This document shows, in pieces, positions 4,263 to 62,229 of a stretch of 64,000 nt of DNA (the stretch's first letter is position 1; each line of letters starts with the position of its first letter). Location of the stretch: the NCBI GenBank assembly GCA_963924555.1, contig OZ004586.1, positions 1,550,001 through 1,614,000 on the forward strand, given 5' to 3'. Origin of the DNA: Crambe crambe. Lineage: Eukaryota > Porifera > Demospongiae > Poecilosclerida > Crambeidae. The notes beneath the pieces are model-generated. The model worked only from the letters and a program-made list of their open reading frames with translations. It ran no database searches and had not been told where the DNA came from. A program made the position numbers and the translations under genes.

Positions 4263-5654
4263 ATGGCTGGAGTCGATGAATTAGGTAAAAAAATAATTTA
4301 CCAACTTTTAGCTAGCACTCAATTTAGTACCGTCTTGTTGATAATTATTCCAGATATACAATCACCTATTGAAACAGCATTAGGTAAGACATGAATTTAC
4401 TTAACTAGCTAGCTACTTGCAGAGATGCTCAAATGATGCAGTCAACCACTTAAATCAGCAGTTCATATTAGGTTAAGCATTAATTTCATCAACCTTGCCA
4501 GGAGGTTGATAAGTGATTCATTGACCTCAGCATTTATCAACCTCTCCAGGAATATCACTTTTTTGACTTCAAATGTAGCAATCCTATTGGTCCAAATTTA
4601 CAACCATGGTTCAATAATCATAATAATCATATAATACCTCAGATGAAGATGATCTGAGTGATATCATGGATGAGTTAGGAATAATCACTTCGAAATGGCG
4701 GAACGTGGGGATGGTGTTGGGTCTGAGACAGGATATTTTAGAATCCATAAAGCATCTCCATCAAAACGACAATCAAATGCTGATGACTGCCATGGCTACC
4801 GAGTGGCTCAAGAGGAACTACAACGTGGAGAGATTTGGCAAGCCCTCATGGAAGAAGCTGGTGGAGGCAGTGGAGGCAAAATCTGGAGGCCACAATACTG
4901 CACTGGCTCAGGACATAGCAAGAAGACACTCAGGTATATTCAAACATAGAAAATGAAAACAGCTTTTACCTCCTACCCCAAGATATATTTGGTTGTTCAT
5001 AACAAGTAGTAGCTATACTAACTATACATAGTAGAAGTCAAGTCTGAAACTCTTTTTTTTTTTATACAGTTGCCTTCATCCCTAGTGAACAACCAGACGG
5101 CGAATACAAAGGCACTTTGTCAACGAGTTCTCTAAAAGGTAAGTGAATTATGTAGTGGCATGCCAACTAATGATAAAAGATTACTTCTGTGAAGTGAGTA
5201 ATCCATGTGTATTCCAGCTGCTTCATGAATATTTCTTTTTTTCATAGAGATTTCACGCATAAGGCAGCAGCCTTCAGTTCACTTAACAACAGCAGTCGAG
5301 CAGCTTATTATGAACCACAAAAGCTATCACGAATTAATCACTGGATCTGAGGCAGAAACGATACTGAAGGCATACAACCACACTTGTTATCTCACCAGAT
5401 TCTCAGAGCAGCAAATGAAATATGTGCTCTCGGTGGCTTTCAAGAAGAAAGATGGGAGCTTTGCATACAAACATTTCCAAATCGTTAAGAATCATGGCAC
5501 ATCCACTTTCAAGATCGAAGGTGCTGAGAAAAGCTTCAACAGTGTTGAGAAAATGCTGGAATATTATCAACACAATGCCCTAACTCCTATCATCACACAT
5601 ATCGGCAAACCATGCTTCAAGAAAGAGTCGGAAAAAAAGTGTGTGATATCTTAA
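4263..5654 (+). CDS. DD-SH2 unit 1: Death-SH2 adaptor
   Basis: Exons 4263-4284, 4354-4383, 4643-4933, 5070-5138, 5248-5654 (272 aa). Leader MAGVDELG; the Death domain fills the third exon (SKWRNVG..LGL, WLKRNYNVERFGKPSW, then ALAQDIA). The SH2 lies in the last exon: SYHELITG, then CYLTRFS carrying the phosphate-binding Arg, KHFQI with a His at the predicted betaD4 site, and a conserved IGKPC end. It is the most divergent intact member: it has an extra 30-nt exon, lacks the Trp/Cys linker exon found in later units, and has YLTRFS instead of YLLRYS. Predicted cytosolic adaptor binding phosphotyrosine and Death partners. Confidence 0.8.
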
Positions 5655-5929
5655 CACAATAATAGCCAAGCTTTACATTTCATTATAACTTGTTATTTTT
5701 GTTGCTCTTGTTTGTTATATTATTGTTGTTTTTATTGCTATTGCTATTATACTAAGGATCATCGGTTAAATTTACTAACTATGACAAATTATTCCTGAGC
5801 ACATAACTATACTAGACAGAGTGACAGCCAATTGATACATTCATATGATCCACCAAATAGTCGTATAATTGTATGCCATCATTATCAATCTTTCTTTCTA
5901 CATCTTGCAGGGGATTAATTAATTTAATA

Positions 5930-6024
<95 letters not shown>

Positions 6025-7265
6025 ATCTAACTGTGGTCTATACTTTTAGCATTTCCTTATAATCACCATTACATCATTGCAAAATGGGGGTAATCCATTT
6101 CTATTCTCACCTGTTGACCACAAAATTAATGTTGACATAATCAAAGCCTCACAATCACATACACAGCGTGCTCTAGACACGTACACACATGCCGCCTGCA
6201 CCAACAAAACCGTGTCATCACAACATTTGATAGCTTGATATCTTTACTACCATACAGATGCAAGTGCATTCTAATTGAAATAAAATGGATCATTAAGAGG
6301 CTCCATCAATACCATTTCCTGTAGATTCTTTGCTATATATGCATGTTATGATATATTATCATGGCTATATATGTAGATACTTGGCATGTAATAAAATTAC
6401 ACAGTCTTGCACAGACAGTTGGAGAATCTCTTATCAAGTAATGAAAATTATACAGTCAATTGATGCACAGGCAGTTGGAGAATTTCCTTGGACTTCTCTA
6501 TAATGTACAAGATTTAACTTTTTGCATTAAAACTCTAGCTAGCTATGTATAGTGAAAAAGATTCAGCTGAGAGCTATCAATATGCGCACCATGCTAGGTG
6601 ATTGTCCACTGGCTGAGGTTTGATACGATATTATAATTCAAATTCAATTCGTATTTCAGTTACCATCCCTATGTGCCCCCCCCCCCCCCCCCCAGTCTAA
6701 AATATCTTCCTACACCTATGTAGTCTGCTCTTGTAATCCTAGCTTGATTTCCACTCATGAATATCATTACCACAGCTCATATAAGTGATGACTAGGCATG
6801 ACATAATGATTATCTATTTAAGTGAAATTTCTCTAGATTTACATTTTATCTATTTAAGTGAAATCTCTTCCTTGTGATTCCTTTAGCTAGCTATATAATA
6901 TAGCAGTATAATTATGATGATTCAAAAAAATAAAAAACCATTGGTGCATGTGAATGACGTGATGCTTACACACAACTGTTATAGCAACATAACATGCATA
7001 CCAGGCATGCAACAATCACTTAAATTGCTCTCCATATATAGACACTTATAGTCATGGCATCTATTAATACACAGTCATATTTATGTGGCATGCCCCCACA
7101 CAGCACATACTTGAAGTGTTATGATACGTAGAGCTTCTGAGTTAGCTGATGTGTTGAATGTGTGTAGTGTGCCACCACAGAGTTAGCTGTAGCACATAGC
7201 TAGCTAGCTAAATCTGTGTTAGCTGATGTGTTGAATGTGTGTAGTAAACTAGAACTATTTATTTC
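5655..7265. other. Spacer between units 1 and 2
   Basis: No exon recognised. It holds a (TG)n tract at 5932-6023 and an 18-C run at 6676-6693. Two near-identical strings around 6405-6490 (CAGTTGGAGAAT) are a local duplication, and GTTAGCTGATGTGTTGAATGTGTGTAG occurs twice (7141, 7218). Confidence 0.6.
5932..6023. repeat. (TG)n microsatellite
   Basis: About 46 uninterrupted TG dinucleotides. Confidence 0.95.
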
Positions 7266-8830
7266 ATGGCCAGTTCCTATTATCCAGGTAAGGACTACTT
7301 CTATATGAGCTTCATGATCATCATCAAATCACATGGCTACATAGTCCTTATATATCTCCATGCAATATGACAGAAAAGAGAGTCGAAGTGTCCAGAGTGA
7401 AGATCGCTTTGAGTAAGTGGAAATTGAATATGAGATTAGGTATCAGTAACTATACGTATGTTCCTTGACTTATTTATGTGTCACTAGATGAAGATGATCT
7501 TTATGAGATAGTGCAGAAATTAGCAAGCATCGCTATCAGGTGGCGCAGGATAGGTATGGCTTTAGGGCTACGGCAAGAGACACTGGACAAAATAGAGCAC
7601 AGGTACCACGATCTGGATGACCAGTTGATCAACATGGTGTCAGAGTGGCTGAAAAGGAACTACACGGTGGAGAAATTCGGCGAGCCAACCTGGAGAAAGC
7701 TGGTGGAAGCAGTGGGGGCAACCACTGGAGGGGCAAATGCAGCACTGGCTCAAGCAATAGCAAAGAAACACTGTGGTATGATGATGATGATGTTGACAAT
7801 CAGTGCATAATTCCCCCAACAATATCTATTTTGTCTGTTTGGTCAAATTCCTAAACTATATGATCAGGTGGCATTTAAGACGATTTCCTGGTCCATTTTT
7901 ACTAGTCACATTAACAGCTATATTAGGACCATCATCAAGTTAATCTATGAATCACTTCAAGCACTGGACAATATTTTGTGTCATATAATTGATATACAAA
8001 TGTAGTGATTTACACAAGAGTTGAATCAGTACGGATGAATACGGCTATGCCGATGCGAGGCACTCCTGTCATCCAACAAGAGAATTGGTAAAAGAAAAAA
8101 CAATTAACTGTCTAGCTGTAAACTTGATGATTTATATACGTAGTCATTCAAGATGGAACTGGAATTGCTGTTGCTTCAGAAGAAGGCATGGAAGACACTC
8201 AAACACAGCGACATACTCTACAAATGTAGCATTTGAAGATGATTCTTTCACTGCTGAAAGGTAAAAGTTTACTGCATTTAATCGGGTTACAATATCCCCC
8301 AATCTGACTTATTTTTCATGGCTATTTTAGTTATTGGTCACCAAAGGTCTTTTGGTACCTTAAAAACAGATTTGCACACTTTTTAATAACATGCTTGCAG
8401 GACATATAGCACCGCATCTTCTTCCTCTCGAGACTTAGTTCAAGCCCTTCCCACCTGGAAGTTTGACCACATAAAGGATCACCCCATCTACCATGGCGCT
8501 CTGACTGGAGAGGAAGCAGAGTTGAAGTTGCAAGACCACAATGGTGGTAATTGCTATCTAATACGATACAGTGAACAGAGAAAGACACACGTCCTCACTG
8601 TTTTGAGAAGAAATGAAGCAAATCCTGACAAGCCATTCAAAGCTCACTTCACACTGAATATAACTAAGAAGAATGGCTGTAACTGCTATGAAGTCGAAGG
8701 AGCAGAAAAGAGTTTCGCAAACATCAATTCATTGTTAGCTTTCTATGAAAAAAACCCATTGACTGCCACCATAACATGCATAGGAGAGCCATATGTCAGA
8801 ACTAGCAAGCAGAAAAATGTGACGAAGTAG
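7266..8830 (+). CDS. DD-SH2 unit 2: Death-SH2 adaptor
   Basis: Exons 7266-7287, 7374-7412, 7488-7775, 8030-8087, 8144-8260, 8401-8830 (317 aa). Leader MASSYYPG; a small basic exon 2 (weaker evidence); Death exon with RWRRIG..LGL and FGEPTW; linker exon with a WNWNCCCF cluster; SH2 with IYHGALTG, CYLIRYS, AHFTL (His at betaD4) and a CIGEPYV end. It shares the extra second exon, the QKLA-IAI start of the Death domain and the GEPYV end with unit 19, its closest paralogue in the window. The linker acceptor at 8143 was chosen because the next AG would create a TGA. Confidence 0.78.
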
Positions 8831-10159: not shown

Positions 10160-10257
10160 ATGGCCAGCAAATCAGAACTCAGAGTAGGTTAGTGAAACTA
10201 GCTAGCTATATATACCAACTACTGTGTGGAAGCTAATGTAGGCCTTGGTGCTGTTTC

Positions 10258-10291
<34 letters not shown>

Positions 10292-11748
10292 TACAGATGA
10301 AGATGATCTCTTTGAAATACTCCAGGAGTTGGCATCAGTTGCCATAAAGTGGCGTAAGATAGGCGTGGCCCTGGGGCTCAATTGTAACACACTGGACAAG
10401 ATAGAGCACATGTACCACGACCCCGATGACCAGCTCAGCAATATGGTGGTGCAATGGCTGAAGAAGAACTACAATGTGGAGAGATTTGGGGACCCCACTT
10501 GGGGAAAACTGGCAAAAGCTGTGAGAGCTAGAGCGGGCGGAGGGAATTCGGCACTGGCTCAGAGAATAGAAGACAATCATTGCAGTAATTAGATAGCTAG
10601 AAGTGGTTATTGTTATAATCACATGATGATAATGATCATTCCTCACACACACCTGACAATATCTAGAACTGCCTACTAGAAAATATGAAAAACTCTCCAT
10701 CAATAATTCTGATATGCAAGAAAATGAGTAAGGAAAGAACATTTGCAAATAATTTGTGGCTATGGTTGATTGTCATATATCACGCAGTAGATCGAATTGC
10801 TGGATCTGTTGTTGCTGCTGTTGCTGTTTCAGTTGTTGCAGAAAACACTCCAGGCAAACGGAGCAGTCTTATAATGCCACATCAGAGAGTAATTTCACTG
10901 CTCCAAGAAGGCAAGTCTCTTTCAGTATGTGCAATGTGTTGTCCAGCTTCCTACACCCCTTGATTGTATTTTGACCTCAGGGAAATGTGTGGAATGTATA
11001 CTACAACAATACACTACTAGATGGCCCATCCAAAAATGTACCTATCTAGATAATCATAGTATTAGCTACTACACAGGCAGTATGCATTCTGTATGCATGT
11101 ATAATTCAAATGAGGCACTGTAATTTATATAGCACAGTCAGTGCACTAGGTTACAGCTGTGAAGGTTCTTTTTTCTATGCTAGTAGCTAACTAGCTAGCA
11201 TAATTTTTTGTTAGTAGCTAATCGGGTTTTGAAACCATGTGGTGGGAAAAAATTATAGTCACCGGTCACCGTCCATAACCTGCAGCTATATTATATCATC
11301 ATGCAGATACAAGGGTCGTAGTGTGCCTCTGGATATATCCCAACACTTACTCCAAGCAATCCCCTCCTGGAAACTCAAGGACATCAAAGACCATCCCAGT
11401 TACCATGGAGCCATAACTGGCAGAGAAGCAGAATACAAACTGAAGCAAAGAGGAGGCAGCTGCTATTTGTTGAGATACAGCGACTGGAGAAGAGTCTTCG
11501 TGCTATCAGTGCTGATACGACAGGAAGGAAAAAGAAGGCCTTTCCACTCTAACTTTGTACTGAACATAACCAAAGGAGAAAATGGAAACATTTATGAGAT
11601 TGAAGGAACCGAGGAGACATTCGAAGACATTCATAAAATGTTGGGATACTATGAAATGAACCCGTTGACCCCAAAAGTTGCACACATTGGACAACCATGC
11701 GTCAATGAGTGGTGGTTGCAAATGAACAAGCGAGGAACTACAATATGA
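10160..11748 (+). CDS. DD-SH2 unit 3: Death-SH2 adaptor
   Basis: Exons 10160-10187, 10297-10584, 10667-10727, 10788-10910, 11307-11748 (313 aa). Death exon: KWRKIG..LGL, DPTWGKL. The linker exon has the richest Cys cluster of the array (CWICCCCCCFSCC). SH2: SYHGAITG, CYLLRYS, SNFVL (Asn at betaD4), IGQPC. The linker exon appears to end in a GC donor (AAG|GCAAGT), whereas paralogues have GT at the same codon. A (TA)n tract (10260-10289) abuts the Death-exon acceptor. Relics of a unit-3-like SH2 3' end recur upstream of units 5, 6 and 7, so this gene resembles the ancestor at the duplication boundary. Confidence 0.78.
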
Positions 11749-11948: not shown

Positions 11949-13072
11949 ATGGCCAGGTATAATGCTTCAGGTACGTATGAAGAAATAATGATGTTTTAAG
12001 TGATTCTTCATTATCTATTAATAAGGTAATGTATTGAATGAAGAGGATCTGCCTGAAATTCTGCACATTTTGGGAACTAGTGAGACAAAATGGCGGGAGA
12101 TAGGTGTGGCACTAGGACTAGGGGAGAATGTACTGGACAGGATAGAGCGCGAAAACCATGATCTTATGAGTCGTTTGAGCAAAATGGTCTCAGAGTGGCT
12201 GAAGAACTATAATACTAAGAGATTTGGTGAGCCTACCTGGGAAAAGCTGGCAGAAGTAGTGAGAAGCAAAGTTGGGGGAAACAACTCAGCATTGGCTCAG
12301 GACATTGCAAGAAAACATGGTAACAATAGCTAATTCACACTCAAATATGTCACTCAATTTCTTTTAGGGATACATATTGAAGAAATTGGAATAAGGACAA
12401 CCACAAATGATGACCGGTAAGAATATTTTATCATCAGTGAGTATTGGATAATTTTCTGTTATACAGTCCTACAACTTCTTGTTGGTTCTGCTGCTTCAGA
12501 ACGACATCAGATATCAGTTCGCATACTAAACTAACTACTACTGCTGAAAGGTCAGTTATTGCCTATATTAGCTAGCTATGTGACCAAATTATGAAATTGT
12601 ATCTCTGGTTTGCTCCGATCTCACACATAAATACAGTCTGAGTAAATCCTTGGACACATCTCAGCGTTTGGCTCAAGCAATTCCTACGTGGAAGCTGAAG
12701 GACATCAAGGATATCCCCAGCTACCATGGTGCCCTGACTGGGAACCAGGCAGAGTCAAGACTCAAAGAATGTGGAGGCAACTGCTATCTATTGAGATATA
12801 GTGTAAAACAAAAGGCTTTTGTGCTTTCAGTGTTAACAGGAAACAATGATGAAAAAGTGTCGGATAACACTTTCCACGTTAACTTCACGTTGAAAATAAC
12901 AAAAGGAAATGACAATAAAAATACCTATGAGATCGATGGAAGTGAAGAACGCTTTGAGAATATCAATGAACTGTTGAAATGTTATAGTATGTCCCCTCTG
13001 GATGCAACAGTAACAAGCATTGGGAAACCATGCATCAAGACAAATCTAGAAAAACGTAGCATCACACTTTAA
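11949..13072 (+). CDS. DD-SH2 unit 4: Death-SH2 adaptor
   Basis: Exons 11949-11970, 12026-12319, 12368-12416, 12467-12550, 12637-13072 (294 aa). Leader MARYNASG. Death: NEEDLPEIL, KWREIG..LGL, GEPTW, LAQDIARKHG; it is one residue shorter after WLK (a Lys missing relative to WLKKNYN in units 5, 6 and 17). Small exon GIHIEEIG. Linker SCWFCCF. SH2: SYHGALTG, CYLLRYS, VNFTL (Asn at betaD4), IGKPC. Intron phases are 1, 1, 2, 2, as in nearly all units. Confidence 0.82.
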
Positions 13073-13689: not shown

Positions 13690-14821
13690 ATGGCCAGCTA
13701 CAATGTTTCAGGTATGAGGAAATATTTAAGTCCAAGTTATACTGATTCTTCATTATCTATTGATAAGGTGATGTATTGAATGAAGAGGATCTGGCTGAAA
13801 TTCTGCACATTTTGGGAACTAGTGTGACAAAATGGAGGGAGATAGGTGTGGTACTAGGACTCGAGGAGAATGTACTGAACAGAATAGAGCACGAAAACCG
13901 TGATCTTATGAGTTGCTTGAGAAAAATGGTCTCAGAGTGGCTGAATAAGAACTACAATACTGAGAGATTTGGTGAGCCTACCTGGGAAAAACTGGTAGCA
14001 GCTGTCAAAAGCAAAGTTGGGGGAAATAACTCAGCACTGGCTCAAGAGATTGCAAGAAAACATGGTAACTATAACTATCCACTTCACACTTCTCCCTCAA
14101 ATACTTTTTTTATAGGGATACATCTACATATTGAAGAATTTGGAGCAAGGAGAGCTGACCAGTAAGAATATTTATCATTGGTGAGTATTGGATTATTTTT
14201 GTCCTATTATAAAGCCCTACAGCATCTTGTTGGTTCTGCTGCTTCAGAACAACAACATCTTCTAACAGTTCACGTGCTGAACTACCTAAGAACAGTCACA
14301 CTACTACTCCTGAAAGGTCAGTTATAGCTATGTGACCAAAAATCATGAAGTTGTATCTCTGGTCTGCTCCAATGTACAGTCTCACCACATCCATTGACAC
14401 ATCTCAGCAATTGCTTCAAGCAATTCCTATGTGGAAGGTGAAGGACATCAAGGATCAACCCAGCTACCATGGTGCCCTGACTGGGAACCAGGCAGAATTA
14501 AAACTCAGAAAATGTGGAGGCAATTGCTACCTGTTGAGATACAGCGAAAAACATAAGGCTTTTGTGCTTTCAGTGTTAGCAAGAAATGACGATGAAGATG
14601 AAGAAGAGTTGGATGAAGCTTTCCATGCTAACTTCACACTGAAAATAACAAAGAAAGATGATGGCAAAAAAATCTATGAGATCGAAGGAAGCGAAGCACA
14701 CTTTGAGAGTATCTATGAATTGTTGGAGTGTTATAGTACCACCCCACTGAGTCCAACAGTAGCAAGCATTGGAAAACCATGTATCAAGAGAAATCCAAAT
14801 AGACATGGTATCACAGTTTAA
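13690..14821 (+). CDS. DD-SH2 unit 5: Death-SH2 adaptor
   Basis: Exons 13690-13711, 13768-14064, 14116-14161, 14215-14316, 14380-14821 (302 aa). Leader MASYNVSG; Death with KWREIG..LGL, WLNKNYN, FGEPTW, LAQEIARKHG; small exon GIHLHIEEFG; linker SCWFCCF plus a Ser/Thr-rich tail; SH2 with SYHGALTG, CYLLRYS, an acidic CD loop (DDEDEEELDEA), ANFTL and IGKPC. The SH2 exon is nearly identical to that of the damaged unit 18, evidence of recent duplication or gene conversion across about 45 kb. Confidence 0.83.
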
Positions 14822-15839: not shown

Positions 15840-17366
15840 ATGGCCAGGTTTAATGATTCAGGTATGAAGAATTCACATTGTTTTGAGTACTAGCTATACT
15901 GATGTATCTTTATCTATTGATAAGGTAATGTATTGAATGAAGAGGATCTGGCTGAAATTCTACACATTTTGGGAACTAGTGTGACAAAATGGAGGGAGAT
16001 AGGTGTGGCACTAGGACTCTGGGAGAATGTACTGAACAGAATAGAGCATGAAAATCGTGATCTTATGAGTTGCTTGAGAAAAATGATCTCGGAATGGCTG
16101 AAAAAGAACTATAATACTGAGAGATTTGGTGAGCCTACCTGGGAAAAGCTTGCAGCAGCTGTCAAAAGCAGTGTTGGAGGAAGCAACTCAGCACTGGCTC
16201 AAAAAATAGCAAGAAAACATGGTAACAATAATAGCTGCTCATACTTTTTCCTCACCTTCACTATCTCCTAAAGGGACACACATTGGAGAAGTGAAAGAAA
16301 GGATAACCATAAATGATGATCAGTAAGAATATCGTATTGTTTGTGAGTATAGTCGTGTTTCATATTTCATCATTACAGTCCTACAACATGTTGTTGGCCC
16401 TTCTGTTGTCTGGAAACAAGATCTTCTATCTCACGTGTTGATTCAAGAACTACACTACTTGAGAACAGTCATATGGTTGCTGCTGCTTCTTCTTCTTCTT
16501 CTTCTTCTATACCTACTACTGTAACAACTGAAAGGTCAGTAGGGACTGGCACATTCTGCCTGCATAGTTTTGGGAATAATAGGTCTATCAAAGCAGGAAG
16601 CATAATGCTGGCATAATAGGCTATCAAAAGTGAACTTCATGGTTGATCTTGAATGTAGCTATTTATCATGTGTACTAGCTAGCCTAGCTGGACCAAACTT
16701 GTCTGCTAATAGCTATTTACGTAGTCTTTCAAATACATATGACATCAGGTACGAGCATAATTAAAGAATAATAGGTCAGTAAAAAAAGAATAATGACTTT
16801 ATACAGCTGGAATTAAAGAATAGAATAATAGGGAAGCAAAAAAGCATAATGTGCCAGTCCCTAAAGGTCAGTCAGTTGTATGTACATTGTATACATTCTA
16901 TATTACATACGCATAAATTCATAGCATATCAATAGACAATTCGTCTCCACGTTTGCTTCAAGCCACTCCTACTTGGATGCTAAAGGACATCCAGTATAAC
17001 CCCAGTTACCATGGTGCTCTGACTGGGAGACAGGCAAATTATGTACTCAGAAAATGTGGAGGCACCTGCTACCTGTTGAGATACAGTGAAAATAAAAAAG
17101 CTTTTGTGCTTTCAGTGTTAATAAGAAATGATAATGACTCAGATGATTCGGAAGCATTCCATACTAACTTTGCTAACTTCAAGCTGAAAATAACAAAGGG
17201 AGATGATGATCAAAATATCTACGAGATTGATGGAAGTGAAGAACGCTTTCAGAATATCAATGAACTGTTGAAATGTTATAGTACAACCCCACTGAGTCCA
17301 GCAGTAACAAACATTGGAAGACCATGTACCAAGAGAAATCAAAATAAACGTGGTGTCACACTTTAA
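15840..17366 (+). CDS. DD-SH2 unit 6: Death-SH2 adaptor
   Basis: Exons 15840-15861, 15925-16221, 16274-16322, 16379-16534, 16925-17366 (321 aa, the longest intact model). Leader MARFNDSG. The linker exon is expanded by a poly-Ser run (from CTT repeats at about 16487-16510) and has a CCWPFCC cluster. SH2: SYHGALTG, CYLLRYS, then NFANFKL, a small duplication of NF at the betaD region; ends IGRPC. Intron 4 holds a 300-bp stretch with repeated AGAATAATAGG and AGCATAAT strings flanked by CAGTAGGGACTGGCACATT / GTGCCAGTCCCTA, an inverted terminal pair suggesting a small insertion (16541-16863). Confidence 0.8.
16541..16863. mobile_element. MITE-like insertion in intron 4 of unit 6
   Basis: Ends GGGACTGGCACATTCTGCCT and (inverted, from about 16863) GGGACTGGCACATTATGCTT are matching terminal inverted repeats. 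The sequence between has no coding capacity and is rich in AATAATAGG. Target duplication not obvious. Confidence 0.6.
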
Positions 17367-18274: not shown

Positions 18275-20149
18275 ATGGAAAATAATCTAGGTAAGTAGTG
18301 GCTATATGAGTCACTATACATGGTAGAGCTAACCAAATAGCACAAAAGGATGGCATATAGGATTAGCCATGACACAAGCTGCTTTGATTAGCTAACCCTC
18401 AGGCACAAGGGTTGCACTGGATGGTTGTCAGTAAGGATTGAGAAATAGGTAGTGGCTTATAAAGACACCTAATCCTTTCACGTCCTATACAATCCATGCC
18501 CATAGAACAAACTGTATCCACCTATTCCCCAAACTTTCCTGACAACCAAGCTGCAATGGACAATAGTACTCAGTTTACTTATTGAGAATCTTTACTTACT
18601 TATAGTGGAAGATGACCTATCTGAAATCCTACAAAGGCTATCACCTGTTGATATCAGATGGCGGGAAATAGGTGTTCAGTTGGGACTGAGACAAGATGTA
18701 TTGGATAGGATAGCACACGAAAATCATGATCTGATGATCTGCTTGAGCAAAATGGTATCAGAATGGCTGCTGAAGAGGAACTATAACATCGAAAAGTTTG
18801 GAGAGCCCTCCTGGAGAAAGCTGGCAGAGGCTGTAGGGAATGCAGCTGGAGGAAGGAATCCAGAACTGGCTCGACAAATAAAGCAAGAACACTGTGATCA
18901 TATTGGTAATGCAGTCAAAGTAAAATTTTCACAGGAAAAAAATAACTATTTTATCAATGTTAATTTAATTTGCAGCAATAGTGAAAGAGAAATCACAGAA
19001 AAACACTTTGAAGGATAATCCAAGTGAAAGGTTGGAATAAATAGATGACATAGCTAGGTAGAAATCAATAAAATATTAGCTACCCCCTTTTTTGTTCTAC
19101 AGCCACTCCACATTCAGCTGGTGCTGCTGTTCCTCAAATACGAATAAACAGTCTAGAAGACCTGCTACTGCTACATATAGCAAACTATTAGAAAACGACA
19201 TTTCAGCTTCAAAAAAAGAGTAAATCATCTATGCATGCCTGCATGTGAATTAGTTCACAGGTTGATACGATACCCAAACTCTTTCCTTGCCCTCAACACT
19301 TTGGCACAAGACTTTGGAGAGTCTTATAACATTCTGAAAGAGCGCTCAATAATCATGAGGCATAAATTTAGGGGATGTGGTTAAATCAATCCTTTTATCG
19401 GTGCTTTTTAATAATAGCAAGTTAATTCAAGTTAGGAAACATAAAGTGTCCATAATATAGCTGCTTCGTGCTTCTTATCCAAATGTTATACAGTGAAACC
19501 TGCCTTAAATATCACCTGTATCCATGAGATCACCCTTCTATAAAAACCACCAGATTCTGTTCTAAAAGTACCATTTCAATTGATTTTGATTTCCATACAA
19601 AGACCACTTCCCTATAAAGACCACTCTTTTGTGACCCAGAGGTGGTTGCTAGGCAAGTTTCACTGTAACAACCATCATGATAATCATTGAGTCAATATTA
19701 TAAATTTATTACACAGCCTAACAAAATCATTTGACAAATCTGTGAATACTATTCAAGCAATTCCTACTTGGAAGCTCAAAGATGTCAAAAATCAGCCCAG
19801 CTACCATGGTGCCATGACGGAAAAAGTTGCAGAATTCATACTTGAACAACAAACTGGTGAAAGTTGCTATCTGATGAGATACAGTGAGCAAAGAAAAGTC
19901 TTTGTGATTTCAGTCTTGACAAGAAATAGGGCTGAAAAAGGCTCAGACTTCCATGCTAGCTTCACACTAAACATAACTAAAGGAGAAGATGGGAATATTT
20001 ATGAGATTGAAGGAACCGAAGAGACATTTGGAAACATCAGTAAATTGTTGGCATTCTATGAAAACAATCCACTGGATGCGAAAGTAAAATCCATTGGAAA
20101 ACCTTGTAATGATGAACCAATGTTAAAACGCTACTTCAGTATGACCTAA
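18275..20149 (+). CDS. DD-SH2 unit 7: Death-SH2 adaptor
   Basis: Exons 18275-18290, 18606-18905, 18976-19030, 19103-19219, 19717-20149 (306 aa). Leader MENNLG; Death with VEDDLSEIL, RWREIG..LGL, WLLKRNYN, GEPSW; small basic exon 3; linker FSWCCCS; SH2 with SYHGAMTE, CYLMRYS, ASFTL (Ser at betaD4), IGKPC. The SH2 exon groups with units 11 and 15. Intron 4 hosts a MITE (19489-19667). The stop is followed at once by a (TTG)n tract. Confidence 0.8.
18415..18555. mobile_element. Short TIR repeat in intron 1 of unit 7
   Basis: Begins CACTGGATGGTTGTCAGTAAGG and ends (inverted) CCATTGCAGCTTGGTTGTCAGGAAA, an imperfect inverted pair. Related sequence occurs at 21286-21362 and, inverted, at about 62325-62490. 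No coding capacity. Confidence 0.5.
19489..19667. mobile_element. MITE with TACAGTGAAAC ends
   Basis: TACAGTGAAACCTGCCT at the left and AGGCAAGTTTCACTGTA at the right are near-perfect 17-bp inverted repeats, flanked by TA-type sequence. 179 bp, non-coding, within the last intron of unit 7. Confidence 0.7.
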
Positions 20150-24019: not shown

Positions 24020-24790
24020 ATTCTGATATGATGGAGACTCCGATATAATATATAGGAGACTCCGATATAATATATAGGAGACTCCGATATAATATATAGG
24101 AGACTCCGATATAATATATAGGAGACTCCGATATAATATATAGGAGACTCCGATATAATATATAGGAGACTCCGATATAATTATATAGGAGACTCCGATA
24201 TAATATATAGGAGACTCCGATATATATAGGAGACTCCGATATAATATATAGGAGACTCCGATATAATTATATAGGAGACTCCGATATAATATATAGGAGA
24301 CTCCGATATGATATATAGGAGACTCCGATATAATATATAGGAGACTCCGATATAATATATAGGAGACTCCGATAATTATATAGGAGACTCCGATATAATA
24401 TATAGGAGACTCCGATATAATATATAGGAGACTCCGCGATATAATATATAGGAGACTCCGATATAATATATAGGAGACTCCGATATAATATATAGGAGAC
24501 TCCGATATAATATATAGGAGACCCCGATATAATATATAGGAGACTCCGATATAATATATAGGAGACTCCGATATAATATATAGGAGACTCCGATAATTAT
24601 ATAGGAGACTCCGATATAATATATAGGAGACTCCGATATAATATATAGGAGACTCCGCGATATAATATATAGGAGACTCCGATATAATATATAGGAGACT
24701 CCTATATAATATATAGGAGACTCCTATATAATATATACGTAGGAGACTCTGATATATTAAATAGGAGACTCCTATAATATTAAATAGGAG
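24020..24790. repeat. Left minisatellite of the transposon
   Basis: About 35 copies of a 21-22 bp unit (ATATAGGAGACTCCGATATA core) with variants lacking or gaining AT. The GGAGACTCC centre is nearly self-complementary. The last copies diverge (CTCCTATA). The long - strand open frame here is only a by-product of the repeat. Confidence 0.95.
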
Positions 24791-25172: not shown

Positions 25173-25214
25173 GAGAGGGAAAATAGTCAAATTGGACAGC
25201 TCCAATAGCAGAAT

Positions 25215-50491: not shown

Positions 50492-52756
50492 ATGGCTCAT
50501 AGATTTGTAGGTAAGTATGATACATCTCAGTCATCAATATCATTAGAGAATTAGTAAACCAGTCAATGAGTGATGCCATATATAGTTGTAGTATAGATCT
50601 GTAAGTACTAATGGATCATAGATTTGTAGGTAACATCTCAGTCACTATTTGTCAAGCTATATATATTAATATTAGTGAGCAATTTTAAATGATTTCGTAA
50701 TACAGTTTATAGAATGAAAAGCTCTATAATAACCACCTGCCCTGCATGCATGAAGGGGAAGTACCAGAAACTAATAGTATGGCTTAGCTATAATCATTAT
50801 GCTGGTAAAGTTAGCCTCCAAACAGAAACTAATTCTATCTATTGATAAGGTAATGTATTGAATGAAGAGGATCTGGCTGAAATTCTTCACATTTTGGGAA
50901 CTAGTGTGACAAAATGGAGGGAGATAGGCGTGGCACTAGGACTTGGGGAGAATGTACTGAACAGGATAGAGCACGAAAACCGTGATCTTATGAGTTGCTT
51001 GAGAAAAATGGCCTCAGAGTGGCTGAAGAAGAACTACAATACTGAGAGATTTGGTGAGCCTACATGGGGAAAGCTGGTAGCAGCTGTGAGAAGCAGAGCT
51101 GGAGGAAACAACTCAGCATTGGCTCACGAGATTGCAAGAAAACATGGTAACTATATAGACACTTTACACTTTGCTTTCAAATATTTCTTTTTTTCTTGTT
51201 TAAGGGATAGAAATTGGTACGGGGACAACCATAAATGCTCAGTAAGTGTTTTATCATCAGCAAGTAATGGACAATTTTAGCAAAGCCCCATTATATTCTG
51301 AAAAACCCAGGGGGGTAACTAGTAGGGTTCCAAAAACCGGTCAAATAATGCACATCGCTCCAAAATAATGCACATTGCTCTAAATAGCACACATCACTCA
51401 AACTAAAGCTAATTCTAGTCTAAGTCTTTCCTGCATCCCAGGCCAAAGAGGCCTAGAACCTAAGGTGACTGTTAGTAGAATGCTTCTGTGGTATTAAAAT
51501 AAGGTGATGAATCAATATCTGGACCTAAGGTGACTGTTAGTAGAATGCTTCTGTGGTATTAAAATAAGGTGATGAATCAATATCTGTAGAGCCATCAAGT
51601 GGGCATAGCTAGTTTATGGGAAGTGGGCATGGCCAGGCCAAGAATTTTCCACATGATATTTGGAAACCTCTCATGATCATTTTCTAAAAATGTCCCTGGA
51701 AATCCATAAATATAAGCTCCCTCCATGTATTGATTTATACAGCTAGCAAACTACAGATTTAGAACCCAAGGGCCCCCAGGATATGGTGCAGCAAGGGCAC
51801 TCACTAGCCATGCATGTCAGAACCAAAAAAGAAGACTTGTGCTGGACCTTCAGACCTCCATTATATTTCATACTATATAGACACTATTAGGGGCCCAAGG
51901 GTTTCTAAATACCATAGATCCCATTGGTCGAGGTGTTCTATAGCCAGTTTGTGGATAATATTAATGACATTCATGATTGTGGTAAATTCTAAGTTCCAAA
52001 TGCTATTGAAATGAGACCTGTATTGGTTAGATGGGTACAGTTATAGTCCAAATAAAACTATAATGTATGATTGTGTATATATAATAATTATATTACAGAA
52101 AATCCATCTGGTTTTACTGCTGCTGTTATTGCTTTCGCACTGACAGAAGTCACTATGATTATGATTATGAATTTATGTTACCTGATTCATCATTGTGAGA
52201 CATACTTAGAGCTAGCTAATCTAATAAAGTACATGAAGTTTTTGTGGGTTAAATTAGGTTTGCAAAGATTGAAAGTGAATCATATTAGTTTGTGAACCCA
52301 CTCTACAAATGATTATTTTCCTAATATAACCATAGTCGCAGAAGAGTTGACAGTAAATCATCAGCGGCATCTCAGCCTATAACTCCAACCATTCCTGATT
52401 GGAAACTAGAGGATATCAGACACCTCTCTTTTTACCATGGCTTCAAGACCGGTCTAGAGGCACAGTTACTACTCCAACTACATGGTGGACACTGCTTTTT
52501 GATCAGATACAGCGAAAGAAAGAGAGCCTTTGTGATCTCGGTATTGAGAAATAACACTCCAACAGCATCTCATTTCAAATTGAAAGTAACAAAGGAGAAT
52601 GACCGCACTTTGTATGAAGTTCAAGGATCTGAAAAACCTTTTGAGAAAATCAATAAACTGCTGGAATACTTTAAAATTAACTCAATCCCTCCAACAGTGA
52701 TGACTCTAGGAAATTCTTGTGATGATAAACAAAGACCTGTGGAGACTACAGTGTAA
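50492..52756 (+). CDS. DD-SH2 unit 14: Death-SH2 adaptor
   Basis: Exons 50492-50510, 50850-51146, 51205-51241, 52099-52194, 52336-52756 (289 aa). Leader MAHRFVG as in unit 9; a second, tandem leader (50611-50629, MDHRFVG) could replace it in the same phase. Death with KWREIG..LGL, GEPTW, LAHEIARKHG; small exon GIEIGTG; linker FYCCCYCF plus YDYDYEFM; SH2 with FYHGFKTG, CFLIRYS, SHFKL (His at betaD4), LGNSC (Pro to Ser). Gene 14 and its upstream block copy the unit 8-9 junction. Confidence 0.83.
51458..51586. repeat. 65-bp tandem duplication
   Basis: ACCTAAGGTGACTGTTAGTA...ATCAATATCTG occurs twice, nearly identical, in intron 3 of unit 14. Confidence 0.95.
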
Positions 52757-53494: not shown

Positions 53495-54807
53495 ATGGCT
53501 GCAAGAAATAGTAAGTAAAATTTATTGTAGGCATGTACCAGCTAGCAGCATAACTTTGATTATTTATAATAGGCAACATTAAATTAACCATAGTTTCTGG
53601 CCATGCCCACTTATTGATTTTGGTATATACAACCTTAGAGCTATTTTCATTATAGCTAATTAAAGTCCCCCAAAATTTAACTCCACCTGTACTGATGTAG
53701 GTAATGTATTGAATGAAGAGGATCTGGCAGAAATTGTGCAAACTTTGGGAACTAGTGAGACAAAATGGAGGGAGATAGGTGTGGCACTAGGACTTGGGGA
53801 GAGTGTACTGAACAGGATAGAGCATGAAAATCGTGATCTTATGAGTCGCTTGAGCAAAATGGTCACAGAATGGCTGAAAAAGAACTATAATGTTGAGAGA
53901 TTTGGTGAGCCTACCTGGGAAAAGCTAGTAGCAGCTGTGAGAAGCAAAGTTGGGGGAAATAACTCAGCATTGGCTCAAGAGATAGCAAGAAAACATGGTA
54001 ACTATATAGCTACGTACTTCACACTTCTCTTTCGAATACTTCACTCTATTTTCTTTTTAAGGGCTACATATTGAAGAATTTGGAACAAGGAAGAACACAA
54101 AAATTGAATACACAAGTAAGTAGTGGATGATTTGTTTCACAACAGCTGTATTACACAGCTCGACGTCTAGTTGGTTCTGCTGTTTCAGAAGGACAGCATC
54201 TCCTGACTCAGATATCAATTCGCTTACTAATCTACCTGAGAACAGTCCTACGCCTGAAAGGTCAGTTAGCTAGTTGAAATACAAGCATCGTGGAGTGAGT
54301 GCTTAGCCTCGTACACAGGTACTATTAGGCCTGGGAACAAGTACTATAATCATTTATATCATTAATTACACATGCAGCCCAAAAAAATCATTTGATAAAT
54401 CTGTGAATACTACGCAAGCAATTCCTACTTGGAAGCTCAAAGATCTTAAAAATCTTCCCAGCTACCATGGTGCCATGACAGAAAGCATCGCAGAATTCAA
54501 ACTTGAGCATCAAACTGGTGGAAGTTGCTATTTGATAAGATACAGTGAGAGAAGGAAAATCTTTGTGATTTCAGTCATGACGAGGAATAGGGTTGAAAAC
54601 GGCTCGGATTTCCATGCTAGCTTCACACTGAACATAACTAAAGGGGAGGATGGAAATATTTATGAGATTGAAGGAACTGAAGAGACATTTGGAAACATCA
54701 GTAAAATGTTGGCATTCTATGAAAACAATCCACTGACTGCGAAAGTAAAATCCATTGGAAAACCTTGTAATGATGAACAGATGTTAAAACGCTGCACTAC
54801 AGTATGA
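53495..54807 (+). CDS. DD-SH2 unit 15: Death-SH2 adaptor
   Basis: Exons 53495-53510, 53701-53997, 54062-54119, 54159-54260, 54378-54807 (300 aa). Leader MAARN, a different type from units 4-6. Death with NEEDLAEIV, KWREIG..LGL, GEPTW; small exon GLHIEEFG; donor at 54120 chosen over the upstream GTAAGT at 54115 because only it keeps the linker frame SSWFCCF. SH2: SYHGAMTE, CYLIRYS, ASFTL (Ser at betaD4), IGKPC. Closely related to unit 11, and the two share flanking sequence including the (TTG)n tail. Confidence 0.78.
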
Positions 54808-55456: not shown

Positions 55457-56561
55457 ATGGCCAGTTACAATGATTCAGGTATGATATTGATTCTTCATTA
55501 TCTATTGATAAGGTAATGTATTAAATGAAGAGGATCTGGCTGAAATTCTGCACATTTTGGGAACTAGTGTGATAAAATGGAAGGAGATTGGTATGGCACT
55601 AGGACTCAAGGAGAACACACTGAACAGGATAGAGCACGAAAATCGTGATCTCATGAGTCGCTTGAGCAAAATGGTCTCAGAGTGGCTGAAGAAGAACTAT
55701 AATGTTGAGAGATTTGGTGAGCCTACCTGGGAAAAACTGGCAGAAGTTGTGAGAAGCAGAGAAGGGGGAAACAACTCAGCATTGGCTCAGGATATTGCAA
55801 GAAAACATGGTAACTATAACTACCCACTTCACACTTCTTCCTCAAATACTTCTTTTTAGGGATACATCTACATATTGAAGAATTTGGAACAAGGATAAGA
55901 TGACCGGTAGGAATATTTATTTATCATTGGTAAATATTTGTCATTATTATTATACAGCCCTACAACATCGTGTTGGTTTTGCTGTTTCAGAATAACAACA
56001 TCTTCTAACAGTTCACATGCTGAATTACCTAAGAACACTACTACTACTCCTCCTGAAAGGTCAGTTATAGCTAGCTATGTGACCAAATTGTATGGTCTGC
56101 TCCATTCACACATATATAATAGTCTCGGCACATCCATCGACGAATCTCAGCAATTGCTTCAAGCCACTCCTACTTGGAAGCTGAAGGACATCACATATCA
56201 CCCCAGTTACCATGGTGCTATGACTGGGAGACAGGCAGATTATAAACTCAGAAAATGTGGAGGCAATTGCTACCTGTTGAGATACAGTGAAAAACATAAG
56301 GCCTTTGTGCTTTCAGTGTTAACAAGAAATGACAATGAAGACAAAGAAGACTCAGATGAAGCGTTCCTTGCTAACTTCACACTGAAAATAACAAAAGATG
56401 ATGGTAAAAAAATCTATGAAATTGAAGGAAGCGAAGTGCACTTTGAGAATATCTATGAATTGTTGGAGTGTTATAGTACCACTCCACTGAGTCCAACATG
56501 CAATAATAAGTTTCATACATACATCTGTTACCCTAGCTCCAATCTTTCACTGTATAACTGA
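55457..56561 (+). pseudogene. DD-SH2 unit 16: frameshifted copy
   Basis: Exons 55457-55478, 55513-55809, 55860-55906, 55958-56059, 56123-56561. Leader MASYNDSG; Death intact (KWKEIG..LGL, GEPTW). The third exon is 47 nt instead of 46 or 49, and in frame reads a TGA just before its donor, so the standard transcript ends after the Death domain. The linker (SCWFCCF) and most of the SH2 (SYHGAMTG, CYLLRYS, ANFTL) are open in their own frame, but the last beta strand and the IGKPC end are replaced by unrelated residues. Could make a Death-only protein. Confidence 0.75.
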
Positions 56562-57139: not shown

Positions 57140-58446
57140 ATGGCCAGGTATAATGATTCAGGTATGAAGAATTCATATTTTTAAGTCAAGCTAGTATCTT
57201 TATCTATTGATAAGGTAATGTATTGAATGAAGAGGATCTGGCTGAAATTCTACACATTTTGGGAACAAGTGTGACAAAATGGAGGGAGATAGGTGTGGTA
57301 CTAGGACTCGAGGAGAATGTACTGAACAGAATAGAGCACGAAAACCGTGATCTTATGAGTTGCTTGAGAAAAATGGTCTCAGAGTGGCTGAAGAAGAACT
57401 ATAATATTGAGAGATTTGGTGAGCCTACCTGGCTAAAGCTGGCAGCAGCTGTCAGAAGCAGTGTTGGGGGAAGCAACTCGGCACTGGCTCAAGAGATAGC
57501 GAGAAAACATGGTAACAATATAACTACTTCACACTTTTCCCTCACCTTCACTGTTTCCTAAAGGGACACATGAAGAAGTGAAACAAAGGGAGACCATAAA
57601 TGATGATCAGTAAGAATATCGTACAGTGTAAATATGTTTACTGCACACCATCTTGTCCCAATGCACACACTGTTTTGTTTTTAGTGTGTGTATTGGGACA
57701 ATTTAGTGTGCAGTACACACTTTCGTTTTTACAGTGTATTGTCAGTGAGTAGTGGATAAATTTGTATTTCATACCAGTCCTACAACATGTTGTTGGCCCT
57801 TCTGTTTTCTGGAAACAAGATCTTCTATTTCACGTGTTGATTCAAGAACCAAACTACTTCCAAACTGTCATGCTCCTCCTCCTGCTTCTTCTTCTACTTC
57901 TATTCCTACTAGTATAACGACTGAAAGGTCAGTCAGTGGTATGTGAACATTGCATACATCCCAGATAGACTTAGCTGGTGTGAATTGTTTCTATGTCATG
58001 TTTTCTTTATTACACAAATTCGTAGCATATTAAAAGATGATCCATCTCCGCATCTTCAAGCCACTCCTACTTGGAAGCTGAAGGACATCACATATCACCC
58101 CAGTTACCATGGTGCTGTGACTGGGAGACAGGCAGACTATGTACTCAGAAAATGTGGAGGCAACTGCTACCTGTTGAGATATAGTGAAAGAAAAAACGCT
58201 TTTGTGCTTTCAGTGCTAACAAAAAACGATGATGAAGAAGACTCAGATGAAGCTTTCTACGCTAACTTCACACTGAAAATAACAAAGGGTAATGATGATA
58301 CAAATATCTATGAGATTGATGGAACTGAGGAACGCTTTGAGAGTATCTATGAATTGTTAGAATGTTATAGTATAATCCCACTGAGTCCAACAGTAACAAG
58401 CATTGGGAAACCATGCACCAGGAATAATAAACGCATCACAGTTTAA
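57140..58446 (+). CDS. DD-SH2 unit 17: Death-SH2 adaptor
   Basis: Exons 57140-57161, 57215-57511, 57564-57609, 57778-57927, 58026-58446 (311 aa). Leader MARYNDSG; Death with KWREIG..LGL, FGEPTW, LAQEIARKHG; small acidic exon GTHEEV; long linker with CCWPFCF and a Pro/Ser/Thr tail, like unit 6; SH2 with SYHGAVTG, CYLLRYS, an acidic CD loop (DDEEDSDEA), ANFTL, IGKPC. Paralogue of unit 6. Intron 3 contains a hairpin (57621-57735). Confidence 0.83.
57621..57735. repeat. Hairpin (MITE-like) in intron of unit 17
   Basis: ACTGCACACCATCTTGTCCCAA on the left pairs with inverted TTGGGACAATTTAGTGTGCAGT on the right around a short T-rich loop. Shorter TTGGGACA strings occur at 40027 and 55223. Confidence 0.8.
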
Positions 58447-59313: not shown

Positions 59314-60403
59314 ATGGCTAAAAGAAACAGTAAGTGATATACAAAGCTAGAATCAATTGTTCATTGCAGGCATATACCACAAGCTAGCAGTGTACACTGA
59401 ATCTTTTGATTATATTAGGCCACAATCTTTAGTTTCTGGTCCCCGCCCACTTCTAATTTCCGGGACTACCAGAATGCATGTGCAAAGTGCATGGTCATAT
59501 GATAATTACATCCACTCACATGCTAGTGAGCAATTTGAAAGGATCTTGCAATAAGTGGAATACAGCATATAGAATGAGAAGATCTATTAACCACCTGACC
59601 TGAGAAGGGGAACTGATTTGGTGTGGCCTGAAAAATTTAAGTCAAGCTATACTGATGCAATTTTATCTTTTGATAAGGTAATGTATTGAATGAAGAGGAT
59701 CTGGCTGAAATTCTGCGCATTTTGGGAACTAGTGTGACAAAATGGAGGGAGATAGGTATAGCACTAGGACTCAGGCAGGACGTATTGAACAGGATAGAGC
59801 ATGAAAATCGTGACCTCATGAGTCGCTTGACTAAAATGGTCTCAGAGTGGCTGAAGAAGAACTATAATGTTGAGAGATTTGGTGAGCCTACCTGGAAAAT
59901 GCTGGTAGCAGCTGTCAGAAGTGAAGTTGGGGGAAATAACTCAGCATTGGCTCAGGAGATTGCAAGAAAACATGGTAGCAATATATCTACGTCATACTTT
60001 TCCCTTGAATATGTGGAAGGTGAAGGACATCAAGGATCATCCCAGCTACCATGGTGCCCTGACTGGGAACCAGGCAGAGTTAAAACTCAGAAAATGTGGA
60101 GGCAATTGCTACCTGTTGAGATACAGCGAAAAACATAAGGCTTTTGTGCTTTCAGTGTTAGCAAGAAATGACGATGAAGATGAAGAAGAGTTGGATGAAG
60201 CTTTCCATGCTAACTTCACACTGAAAATAACAAAGAAAGATGACGGTGAAAAAATCTATGAGATTGAAGGAAGCGAAGCACACTTTGAGAGTATCTATGA
60301 ATTATTGGAGTGTTATAGTACCACCCCACTGAGTCCAACAGTAACAAGCATTGGAAAACCATGTATCAAGAGAAATCCAAATAGACATGGTATCACAGTT
60401 TAA
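59314..60403 (+). pseudogene. DD-SH2 unit 18: internal deletion
   Basis: Leader exon 59314-59329 (MAKRN), Death exon 59678-59974 (KWREIG..LGLRQD, GEPTW). Only about 36 bp into the following intron the sequence jumps into the SH2 exon at 60011 (GTGGAAGGTGAAGGACAT), removing the small exon, the linker and the first SH2 bases. The SH2 is then intact to its stop (SYHGALTG, CYLLRYS, ANFTL, IGKPC) but in another frame, and no acceptor restores the phase. The SH2 differs from unit 5 at only a few positions. Death-only product possible. Confidence 0.8.
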
Positions 60404-61001
60404 CTTACTATGTATGCACATGTGTAAATATAATTGAGTGTTGTTCTATTATCCTATAAGCATACACAAAATATTATGATTATATAGATATGCATATCAC
60501 GGTATGTTACAATAATTATAGTTGTTGTCATAGCAGTTATTGTTGTTGTTGTTGTTATTATTATTGGTTCAGAAGTGTTGTCTAATATGCAAGGGAACAT
60601 ATCTCTGATTATTTGTCAAAGGAAGTTTCTTGACCACTTTTGGTTGTACTGTACCACATGTAGAACAGTAGTGCACTTGTTTGTACCCATATACACACAT
60701 TATAGAACCACAACCACTACATACAGTTCAGGCCATTCCCACCAGGAAGAAAACTATTGAGGACCACTGTGATAGACTTGAGGAAGTACATAAGAAATCT
60801 TCACTTGCCGACTTCATTATGCCATACGACCATGTATACTCTAGTTAATATGGTCACTTATGAATCTCATAGTATATGGAACAATAGATCATATGCATAT
60901 ATGTAGCTGCATAGAGTATGTGACCCATGCTAAATTTGCCAAATAGATAATATATAGGAGATTCATCAAGAACTGAGGCTTAAGAGAAAGTTAAAAGTTA
61001 T
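60404..61001. other. Spacer with SH2 stub (units 18/19)
   Basis: (TTG)n/(TTA)n at 60539-60565. 60725-60785 is a damaged SH2 start like the one at 58765. 58447-59035 and 60404-60975 are colinear overall, so units 17 and 18 were duplicated together with their 3' flanks. Confidence 0.6.
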
Positions 61002-61727
61002 ATGGCTAGTTATCAAAAACCAGGTTGGAGTTATCATGAGTTAATGCATGACTTGATATACTTTCTTTTTCTATAGCACTTTCTATAGAAGCTTCAAGTA
61101 GTTACAGTGCAGCTGCATTGAGTAAGAATCGAAAACTACATAGGGTTATTGATTAGTAATGACTTCAATTAGATGAAGATGACTTACAAGAGATTGTGCA
61201 GAAGTTGGCAGATATTGCTATCAAATGGCCTAAAATAGGAATGGTTCTGGGGCTGAGGCAAGATATACTGAATACTATACAACAAGAACACGGCCACCAC
61301 GACCTTGTTACTCAGTTGACCAACATGGTATCACAGTGGCTAAAGAGAAACTATAATGTTGATAAATTTGGAGAACCAACCTGGGAAAAGCTGGCAGAGG
61401 CTGTGGGGAACAAAGTAGGTGGAGCAAACACAGCCCTGGCTCAAGAGATAGCAGAGACACATATGCACTGTAAGGCTATGAAATGAATACAGTGAAGTAC
61501 AACAATCTACTTCTGACCAATTATCTTTTTCAAGCTTTTCATGTGAGAAGTGGTACTAAAAGCAGAGAAATGGCAAAACACATGGTTTCTACTGAACAGC
61601 AAGACAGCCAGTAAGAACATGTATTACACCAAAAATAATTTGTTCCTGTTTTCTTCTATAGATCATCTGAGTACAACTGGTTTTGCTGCTTCAAAATGCA
61701 CAAAAGCAACTCATTACCACAATTAAA

Positions 61728-61764
<37 letters not shown>

Positions 61765-62229
61765 CCATTCCAATTTACTGAAAGGTGCAGGCATACACAT
61801 GTATTTAGTTAGTAACTAAAATACTGTACATATACATGTAGTATGTCATCACAAGGTACTGCCCAAACAACTCGAGCCATTCCTACCTGGAAGCTGAAAG
61901 ATATCAAGAATCGTTCCAGTTATCATGGCGCCATGACTGGAAAAGAAGCAGTATTAAAACTCAAAGAACATGGTGGCAACTGCTATCTCCTACGATATAG
62001 TGAAGTTAGAAAATCACTTGTGATCACAGTATTGAGAGGAGATGAAAAGAAACCATTTCATTTCATACTAAATATTACTAAAAAGGATAACCGCAGTATC
62101 TATGAAATAGAAGGAACTGAAGAGTACTTTGATAATATCGATTCACTGCTAGCCTTCTATCAAGACAACCCTTTAACTGCCATAATAACATGCATAGGAG
62201 AGCCGTATGTTAGAGAGTGCAACCTGTAA
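61002..62229 (+). CDS. DD-SH2 unit 19: Death-SH2 adaptor
   Basis: Exons 61002-61023, 61077-61121, 61173-61469, 61535-61610, 61662-61784, 61842-62229 (316 aa). Leader MASYQKPG; extra Ser/Ala-rich exon 2 as in unit 2; Death with IVQKLA, KWPKIG..LGLRQD, GEPTW, LAQEIA; longer basic small exon; linker YNWFCCF followed by eleven Asp in a row (GAT repeat); SH2 with SYHGAMTG, CYLLRYS, FHFIL (His at betaD4), IGEPYV. Last unit of the array and closest to unit 2. Confidence 0.82.

Follow-up and report, generated by a model that had tools for sequence, protein, structure and literature searches.

In vertebrates, linking phosphotyrosine signalling to death-fold assembly takes several proteins. The closest published kind found to the genes described here are the Death–TRADD-N proteins of the sponge Amphimedon, in which, according to the available part of the report by Kaur et al. 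2021 (PMC8195603), 357 TRADD-N proteins of the NCOA6 clade occur, most architectures carrying one to three Death-like domains at the N-terminus and a variable C-terminus, for which an SH2 domain is one of the options. Here the analysis concerns a 64,000-nucleotide window (the whole stretch of DNA analysed, C9:1,550,001-1,614,000, C9 being contig OZ004586.1) of the 143 Mb, 119-contig genome of the sponge Crambe crambe, which holds a tandem array of gene models joining a Death domain to an SH2 domain. An earlier sequence-only reading of the window had stated that no standard animal family consists of only these two domains. None was found in the present searches, a first full-length protein search giving one protein only, and no report of a Death-SH2 or of an SH2-CaaX architecture was found in the open-licence literature; the statement needs qualifying by the near kin in Amphimedon, where an SH2 domain is possible in the Death–TRADD-N proteins (PMC8195603, available part).

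The array and its gene models

In a motif scan, the interval from 4.6 to 62.2 kb of the window contained 17 Death exons along with 16 SH2 exons, all on the + strand and none on the − strand. Their order was strictly Death followed by SH2 except for a single Death-Death step at 21475/22999, and the probability that a random order of 17 Death and 16 SH2 exons would contain no adjacent SH2 exons is 1.3e-7. This near-perfect alternation on one strand agrees with the roughly 17 units counted in the sequence-only reading. Profiles built from the family itself placed the same exons and added SH2 fragments, including a weak one on the − strand. The array does lie at 4263..62229 as that reading had given it, as part of a larger cluster that reaches about 73 kb further left of the window and 0.4 kb further right. 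In the left flank, the same profiles found Death/SH2 pairs at C9:1,476,879, 1,486,682, 1,488,958 and 1,491,272; a decayed pair lies at C9:1,514,000, and the rightmost SH2 genes of the cluster extend to C9:1,614,418. An 894,434-base contig, apparently from another public assembly, carries seven SH2 relatives (all 46 of 46 matches considered) and at least 15 Death relatives (among the best 120 of 436 matches), some marked as encoded in the window and others slightly different, which makes it unlikely that the cluster arose as an artefact of assembly. Across the genome, a first look gave 965 candidate Death-domain exons, with at least 150 matches at E<=0.001 (150 of 150 scored). Closely spaced SH2 exons were also seen on contigs C5 and C12.

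Both domains were recognized by Pfam profiles. Death (PF00531) matched 22/22 exons at E<=0.01 (17 in the window and five elsewhere), several scores falling just under the Pfam cut-off, and SH2 (PF00017) matched 27/27 exons at the same threshold (13 in the window, with U09, U14 and U16 left out, and 14 elsewhere). The predicted structure of the Death exon is a six-helix death fold, nearest to the death domain of FADD, and that of the SH2 exon is an SH2 fold with a Foldseek E-value of 1.8e-6 to the phosphatase SHP2, whose SH2s are also the nearest solved ones by sequence. The phosphotyrosine-binding Arg of the FLVRES motif is kept in the form C-Y/F-L-x-R-Y/F-S and is nearly invariant, with His in one flank copy. 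Four of the 13 intact models were scanned whole at a Pfam E-value of 0.01 (no profile of the TRADD-N family of PMC8195603 was run), giving only Death and SH2 apart from one match below the cut-off, and no enzyme domain above the Pfam cut-off.

Splicing was modelled from GT/GC–AG signals, the chain score including a bonus of 1.5 when a Cys cluster was included. Open Death–linker–SH2 chains were obtained in 13/17 units (U01-07, U10-13, U15 and U17), the same number that the sequence-only reading had called intact; six of them were joined with exon 1 and seven begin at the Death exon, and exon 1 candidates are present for 12 of the 13. The usual plan is a first exon (ATG, about 5-9 codons, phase 1), a Death exon (phases 1-1), linker exons 3 (1-2) and 4 (2-2) and an SH2 exon running to the stop. 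The five-exon plan that had been proposed as common to all units is thus right for most of them, with intron phases 1,1,2,2; U13 has phases 1,1,1,2, U01 has five exons with all phases 1, and in U11 exons 3 and 4 are apparently merged and no convincing exon 1 was found.

Cysteine clusters, CaaX relatives and mosaic exons

Besides the true extent of the cluster, three features had not been described before: a Cys cluster in the linker, a family of CaaX-ending relatives and a mosaic arrangement of exons. Exon 4 carries at least two Cys around a Trp in 13/14 readable window copies (broken U09 and U14 included). In 12 of these 13 clustered exons a run of 2-7 Cys stands directly behind the Trp or a few residues further on, mostly followed by Phe-Arg/Lys, as in CWFCCFR, WNCCCFRR, WFYCCCCCFR and WFCCFK; U15 has two Cys ahead of the Trp and one behind. 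A CC(C) motif also lies between Death and SH2 in 3/4 left-flank pairs, as read in unspliced sequence. One of these, Lx2, has a Death exon only about 50% identical to the query and keeps the order, with CCCFK in between; behind it, at C9:1,487,200-1,487,540, lies a long proline-rich stretch that is possibly an SH3 or EVH1 ligand. Three pairwise comparisons of the Cys stretch among three chosen related units (U04, U05 and U14) gave 7 synonymous against 2 nonsynonymous codon differences. If spliced in as modelled, the exon-4 cluster is likely to be a palmitoylation site.

A search with the SH2 alignment against 5.8 billion proteins returned 46 proteins. Among the 37 SH2 relatives on contigs other than those of 894,434 and 1,397,223 bases, 29 have a Cys exactly at position −4, all but two of them combined with I, V or L at −2 (27/29); elsewhere in the last 12 residues, no position has more than three Cys. 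For comparison, Cys stands at −4 in 3/120 Death open reading frames (ORFs) of the same database, many of which, being exons, may end inside introns, and in 32/612 six-frame ORFs of the region, true CaaX ends included. In the same genome, 8/11 examined SH2 ORFs of the family that lack a Death exon end in CaaX (CIIL, CILL, CTLM, CRIL and CALM), some reading as SH2-coiled coil-CaaX. Because Cys at −4 recurs both in the relatives and in the SH2 ORFs of the same genome, the sequences indicate that a wider family of small SH2-CaaX proteins exists and that the Death-SH2 genes stand among its members. Among the 13 intact units, a canonical CaaX box is present only in U01; U11 and U13 end in CTTV and the other ten have none.

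In SH2 trees, in which ordinary SH2s and the SH2s of TRADD-N proteins were not included, the 16 SH2s of Death-SH2 genes besides that of U01 group together with support of 90.1/91. The SH2 of U01 pairs instead with an SH2 of the other, CaaX branch (90.7/88), this partner having no CaaX in the same ORF. With the U01 SH2 favoured outside the group of the other 16, Death was likely joined to SH2 twice and separately, a conclusion that falls short of proof.

Mosaicism was analysed in the 8/13 intact units with close Death exons, the other five, with Death exons of other types, being left out. Under these close Death exons there are three SH2 classes, comprising U04, U05, U06 and U15, then U10 and U12, and finally U11 and U13. 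Death identity was 0.91 within classes and 0.89 between them, whereas exon 4 identity was 0.76 within and 0.52 between, and SH2 identity 0.84 and 0.62, respectively. The synonymous distance between U10 and U13 was 0.28 for Death as against 1.73 for SH2. U07 agrees with this pattern: its SH2 falls in the class shared by U11 and U13, and its Death exon is 59% identical to that of U05. Because the Death exons are alike across classes while exon 4 and SH2 follow class, a common Death half has been distributed among old SH2 halves through gene conversion or unequal exchange, the junction lying between exons 3 and 4. Purifying selection acts on each of the two halves, the median ratio of nonsynonymous to synonymous substitutions (dN/dS) being 0.28 for Death and 0.36 for SH2, with no pair above 1 (pairs with dS 0.03-1.5; broken U14 and U16 included, Death pairs of U11 inside the core set excluded). 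The earlier proposal of a tandem expansion in which Death is joined to SH2 in one gene model is supported by the domain profiles, the predicted structures, the phases of the splice sites and the purifying selection.

Proposed mechanism and competing explanations

The reading that we favour, with some confidence, is that the array encodes adaptors, held by lipid anchors, that convert phosphotyrosine signals into death-fold assembly. Each intact unit would be one gene for a cytosolic adaptor of about 270-315 amino acids, in which a short first exon is followed by a Death domain, by a low-complexity linker bearing the Cys cluster and, at the C-terminus, by an SH2 domain. The Cys cluster, or the CaaX box in U01, would be lipidated and keep the protein at the membrane, and the SH2 domain would dock on tyrosine-phosphorylated tails once a receptor or its kinase becomes active. 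As docked copies crowd together, their Death domains could then assemble and draw in further partners with Death domains. The array would evolve by duplication and by swapping the common Death half (the output) among SH2 halves (the input). A wider picture, which we put forward tentatively as just short of an even call, is that some animals, probably sponges, have a large lipid-anchored SH2 family (minimal SH2-CaaX and SH2-coiled coil-CaaX), that Death was joined to it in two branches, each keeping a lipid signal (CaaX in U01 and a Cys cluster in almost all other units), and that the array acts as a swap board putting one death-fold output on changing phosphotyrosine inputs at the membrane. 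The sequence-only reading had spoken of a signalling or immune system; a role in immunity or in cell death can at present only be inferred.

A number of results weigh against the favoured reading. The best Foldseek match of the Death model has an E-value of 0.047, with none below 0.001, and the Death profile gave four weak matches against the PDB, three to CLK2 kinases and one to the RIPK1 death domain at E 0.0008. In U07, U11, U13, U15 and U17 the final gene model is hand-chosen or lower-ranked and not the top automatic chain, and exon 3 of U02 is weak. A position of U01 inside the Death-SH2 group was not rejected (approximately unbiased test, p=0.127). The Cys cluster is reduced to a single Cys in U11 and is absent from the left-flank pair Lx4 and from the decayed pair at 1,514,000. 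A second AG (TTCAG or GACAG) often stands behind the Cys codons, so that a later acceptor could drop the cluster in several units, and when the score bonus is removed a cluster-free chain leads in U04, U05, U12 and U15.

The main rival, unlikely on balance yet the first to be weighed, is that these proteins are decoys or brakes, the anchored SH2 domain occupying phosphotyrosine sites and the Death domain capping rather than seeding assemblies. The small size of the adaptors, the lack of an enzyme domain in the four models scanned and the closeness of their SH2s to those of SHP2 would all suit a brake, and many copies could buffer signalling; the present results nevertheless fit an activator as well as they fit a brake.

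It is doubtful that the Cys run, instead of being a lipid anchor, serves as a patch for binding metal or forming disulfides, or belongs to an intron ahead of the downstream acceptor. The second AG and the chains that lead when no bonus is given would be expected under this explanation, as would the variable length of the run. Against it, the 13 clustered exon 4s are open in one frame from the upstream AG, the Trp is conserved and the run is usually followed by Phe-Arg/Lys, synonymous changes predominate in the three-unit check, and sister SH2 genes bear another lipid signal, the CaaX box.

That the units are remnants of Amphimedon-type Death-TRADD-N-SH2 proteins after loss of TRADD-N seems improbable. 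Such architectures are reported for Amphimedon (PMC8195603, available part), and at a locus of the same genome (L021, C19:1.74 Mb) a Death exon is followed by a long exon and then by an SH2 exon; the SH2 of L021, however, has an ordinary FLIRES motif, while those of the array are of the CYLLRYS type. L021 may be a Death-TRADD-N-SH2 gene, but its 325-amino-acid exon gave no TRADD-N match in Pfam. Two other candidate loci, L019 (Death, a zinc exon of SUMO-ligase type and a GRB2-like SH2) and L020 (Death, SH3, SH2 and kinase-like exons), their exons named by eye, are probably separate genes. At a further locus (L017), a Death exon and, 2.3 kb behind it, an ordinary SH2 exon share one strand.

Lastly, separate, interleaved genes for the Death and SH2 exons are very improbable: the joining is one of predicted gene models, and the same cluster also contains SH2 genes that lack a neighbouring Death exon of the family, most ending in CaaX, but the near-perfect alternation, the matched splice phases, the 13 open chains and the distant pair Lx2, which keeps both the order and the CCCFK, all speak for joined genes.

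The coordinates of all units and related genes are collected in Table 1. The SH2 exon of U09 is interrupted by an insert of about 10.7 kb (23922-34583) that contains an integrase-core ORF at 25215-26102 on the − strand (rva_4, E 2.8e-82) and, close to its two ends, 22-base and 21-base tandem arrays. PDZ-ligand C-termini (ETTV, ETTL and GTTI) occur only in some units and were not used as support. To the left of the array, the CARD-like ORF has a 63%-identical copy 12 kb further left, at C9:1,540,485-1,540,889. A tandem array of GAAAGATA type, about 1.6 kb long, lies at 42851-44429 and is open in many frames on both strands.

Table 1. Death-SH2 units, SH2 genes without a nearby Death exon of the array family, and neighbouring ORFs (window positions unless a contig is named; exons in order)
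Feature	Position	Strand	Exons and remarks
U01	4263..5654	+	4263-4284, 4354-4383, 4643-4933 (Death), 5070-5138, 5248-5654 (SH2, ends KKCVIS = CaaX); no Cys cluster
U02	7266..8830	+	7266-7287, 7488-7775 (Death), 8006-8087 (weak exon 3), 8144-8260 (WNWNCCCFRRR), 8401-8830 (SH2)
U03	10160..11748	+	10160-10187, 10297-10584 (Death), 10667-10727, 10788-10910 (WICCCCCCCF; GC donor), 11307-11748 (SH2; acceptor 11286 equal score)
U04	11949..13072	+	11949-11970 (candidate), 12026-12319 (Death), 12368-12416, 12467-12550 (CWFCCFR), 12637-13072 (SH2)
U05	13690..14821	+	13690-13711, 13768-14064 (Death), 14116-14161, 14215-14316 (CWFCCFR), 14380-14821 (SH2); structure models made
U06	15840..17366	+	15840-15861 (candidate), 15925-16221 (Death), 16274-16322, 16379-16534 (CCWPFCCL), 16925-17366 (SH2)
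U07	18275..20149	+	18275-18290, 18606-18893 (Death), 18976-19030, 19103-19219 (SWCCCSS; hand-chosen), 19717-20149 (SH2)
U08, broken	21421..22419	+	21421-21681 (Death); SH2 fragments only, 22184-22273 and 22315-22419
U09, broken	22867..34779	+	22867-22885, 22946-23233 (Death), 23287-23317, 23385-23474 (WTCCCFR); SH2 split, 23725-23921 / 34584-34779
U10	35607..36993	+	35607-35631 (candidate), 35700-35996 (Death), 36076-36121, 36280-36378 (WFYCCCCCFR; two alternative starts score equally), 36576-36993 (SH2, ends ETTL)
U11	38155..39614	+	38155-38475 (Death), 38539-38713 (merged linker with one Cys, WLNCLRR; hand-chosen), 39185-39614 (SH2, ends CTTV)
U12	50492..52756	+	50492-50510, 50850-51146 (Death), 51205-51241, 52099-52194 (WFYCCCYCFR), 52336-52756 (SH2, ends ETTV)
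U13	53495..54807	+	53495-53510 (candidate), 53701-53997 (Death), 54062-54115, 54146-54260 (WFCCFRR; hand-chosen), 54378-54807 (SH2, ends CTTV)
U14, broken	55513..56561	+	Death intact; in-frame TGA in exon 3; exon 4 CWFCCFR kept; SH2 C-terminus lost
U15	57140..58446	+	57140-57161 (candidate), 57215-57511 (Death), 57564-57609, 57778-57927 (CCWPFCFL), 58026-58446 (SH2); second-best automatic chain
U16, broken	59678..60403	+	Death and SH2 intact; exons 3 and 4 absent; Death donor to SH2 start about 36 bases
U17	61002..62229	+	61002-61023 (candidate), 61173-61469 (Death), 61535-61610, 61662-61784 (WFCCFK, poly-Asp; end hand-chosen), 61842-62229 (SH2)
SH2 genes without nearby Death exon	C9:1,494,863-1,534,479
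SH2 gene without nearby Death exon	C9:1,614,107		0.1 kb right of window
SH2 genes without nearby Death exon	C8:7.23-7.27 Mb
SH2 genes without nearby Death exon	C6:2.745 Mb
Coiled-coil-like ORF	855..1349	+	ends KKKCIIL (CaaX)
CARD-like and coiled-coil-like ORFs	2194..3474	+	weakly CARD-like ORF 2194-2580 (Pfam E 0.046); coiled-coil-like ORF ending CKLM (CaaX) at 3474; one gene or two

Comparison with known systems

Like the Amphimedon TRADD-N set, the array is a lineage-specific expansion in a sponge with an N-terminal Death-like domain and SH2 as a C-terminal option (PMC8195603, available part). Unlike that set, which is defined by TRADD-N, the four array models scanned gave Pfam matches to Death and SH2 only, bar the one match below the cut-off; the array also has candidate lipid motifs and SH2s of the SH2-CaaX family, lipid motifs not being met in the available part of the Amphimedon description (PMC8195603). 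If the proposed mechanism is right, phosphotyrosine signalling and death-fold assembly would be united in a single small membrane adaptor of an early-branching animal, and a membrane tyrosine-kinase signal could set off death-fold assembly via one protein. The array moreover offers natural sets of one Death half with different SH2 halves, in which the question of SH2 input and Death output can be asked directly.

The CARD9/CARMA1-BCL10-MALT1 system likewise leads from tyrosine-kinase input to death-fold assembly but uses several proteins and CARD, whereas the array would have the reader and the death fold in one polypeptide. MyD88, FADD and IRAK-type adaptors are similarly small Death adaptors with a second recognition or effector domain, which is TIR, DED or a kinase in those proteins and SH2 in the array. 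SAP and EAT-2 are likewise small SH2 adaptors, consisting of little beyond one SH2 domain, but have neither a Death domain nor a CaaX box. Lipid-anchored phosphotyrosine signalling is also known from the LAT and PAG scaffolds and from Src-family anchors; LAT and PAG carry the tyrosines, whereas an anchored array protein would carry the reader.

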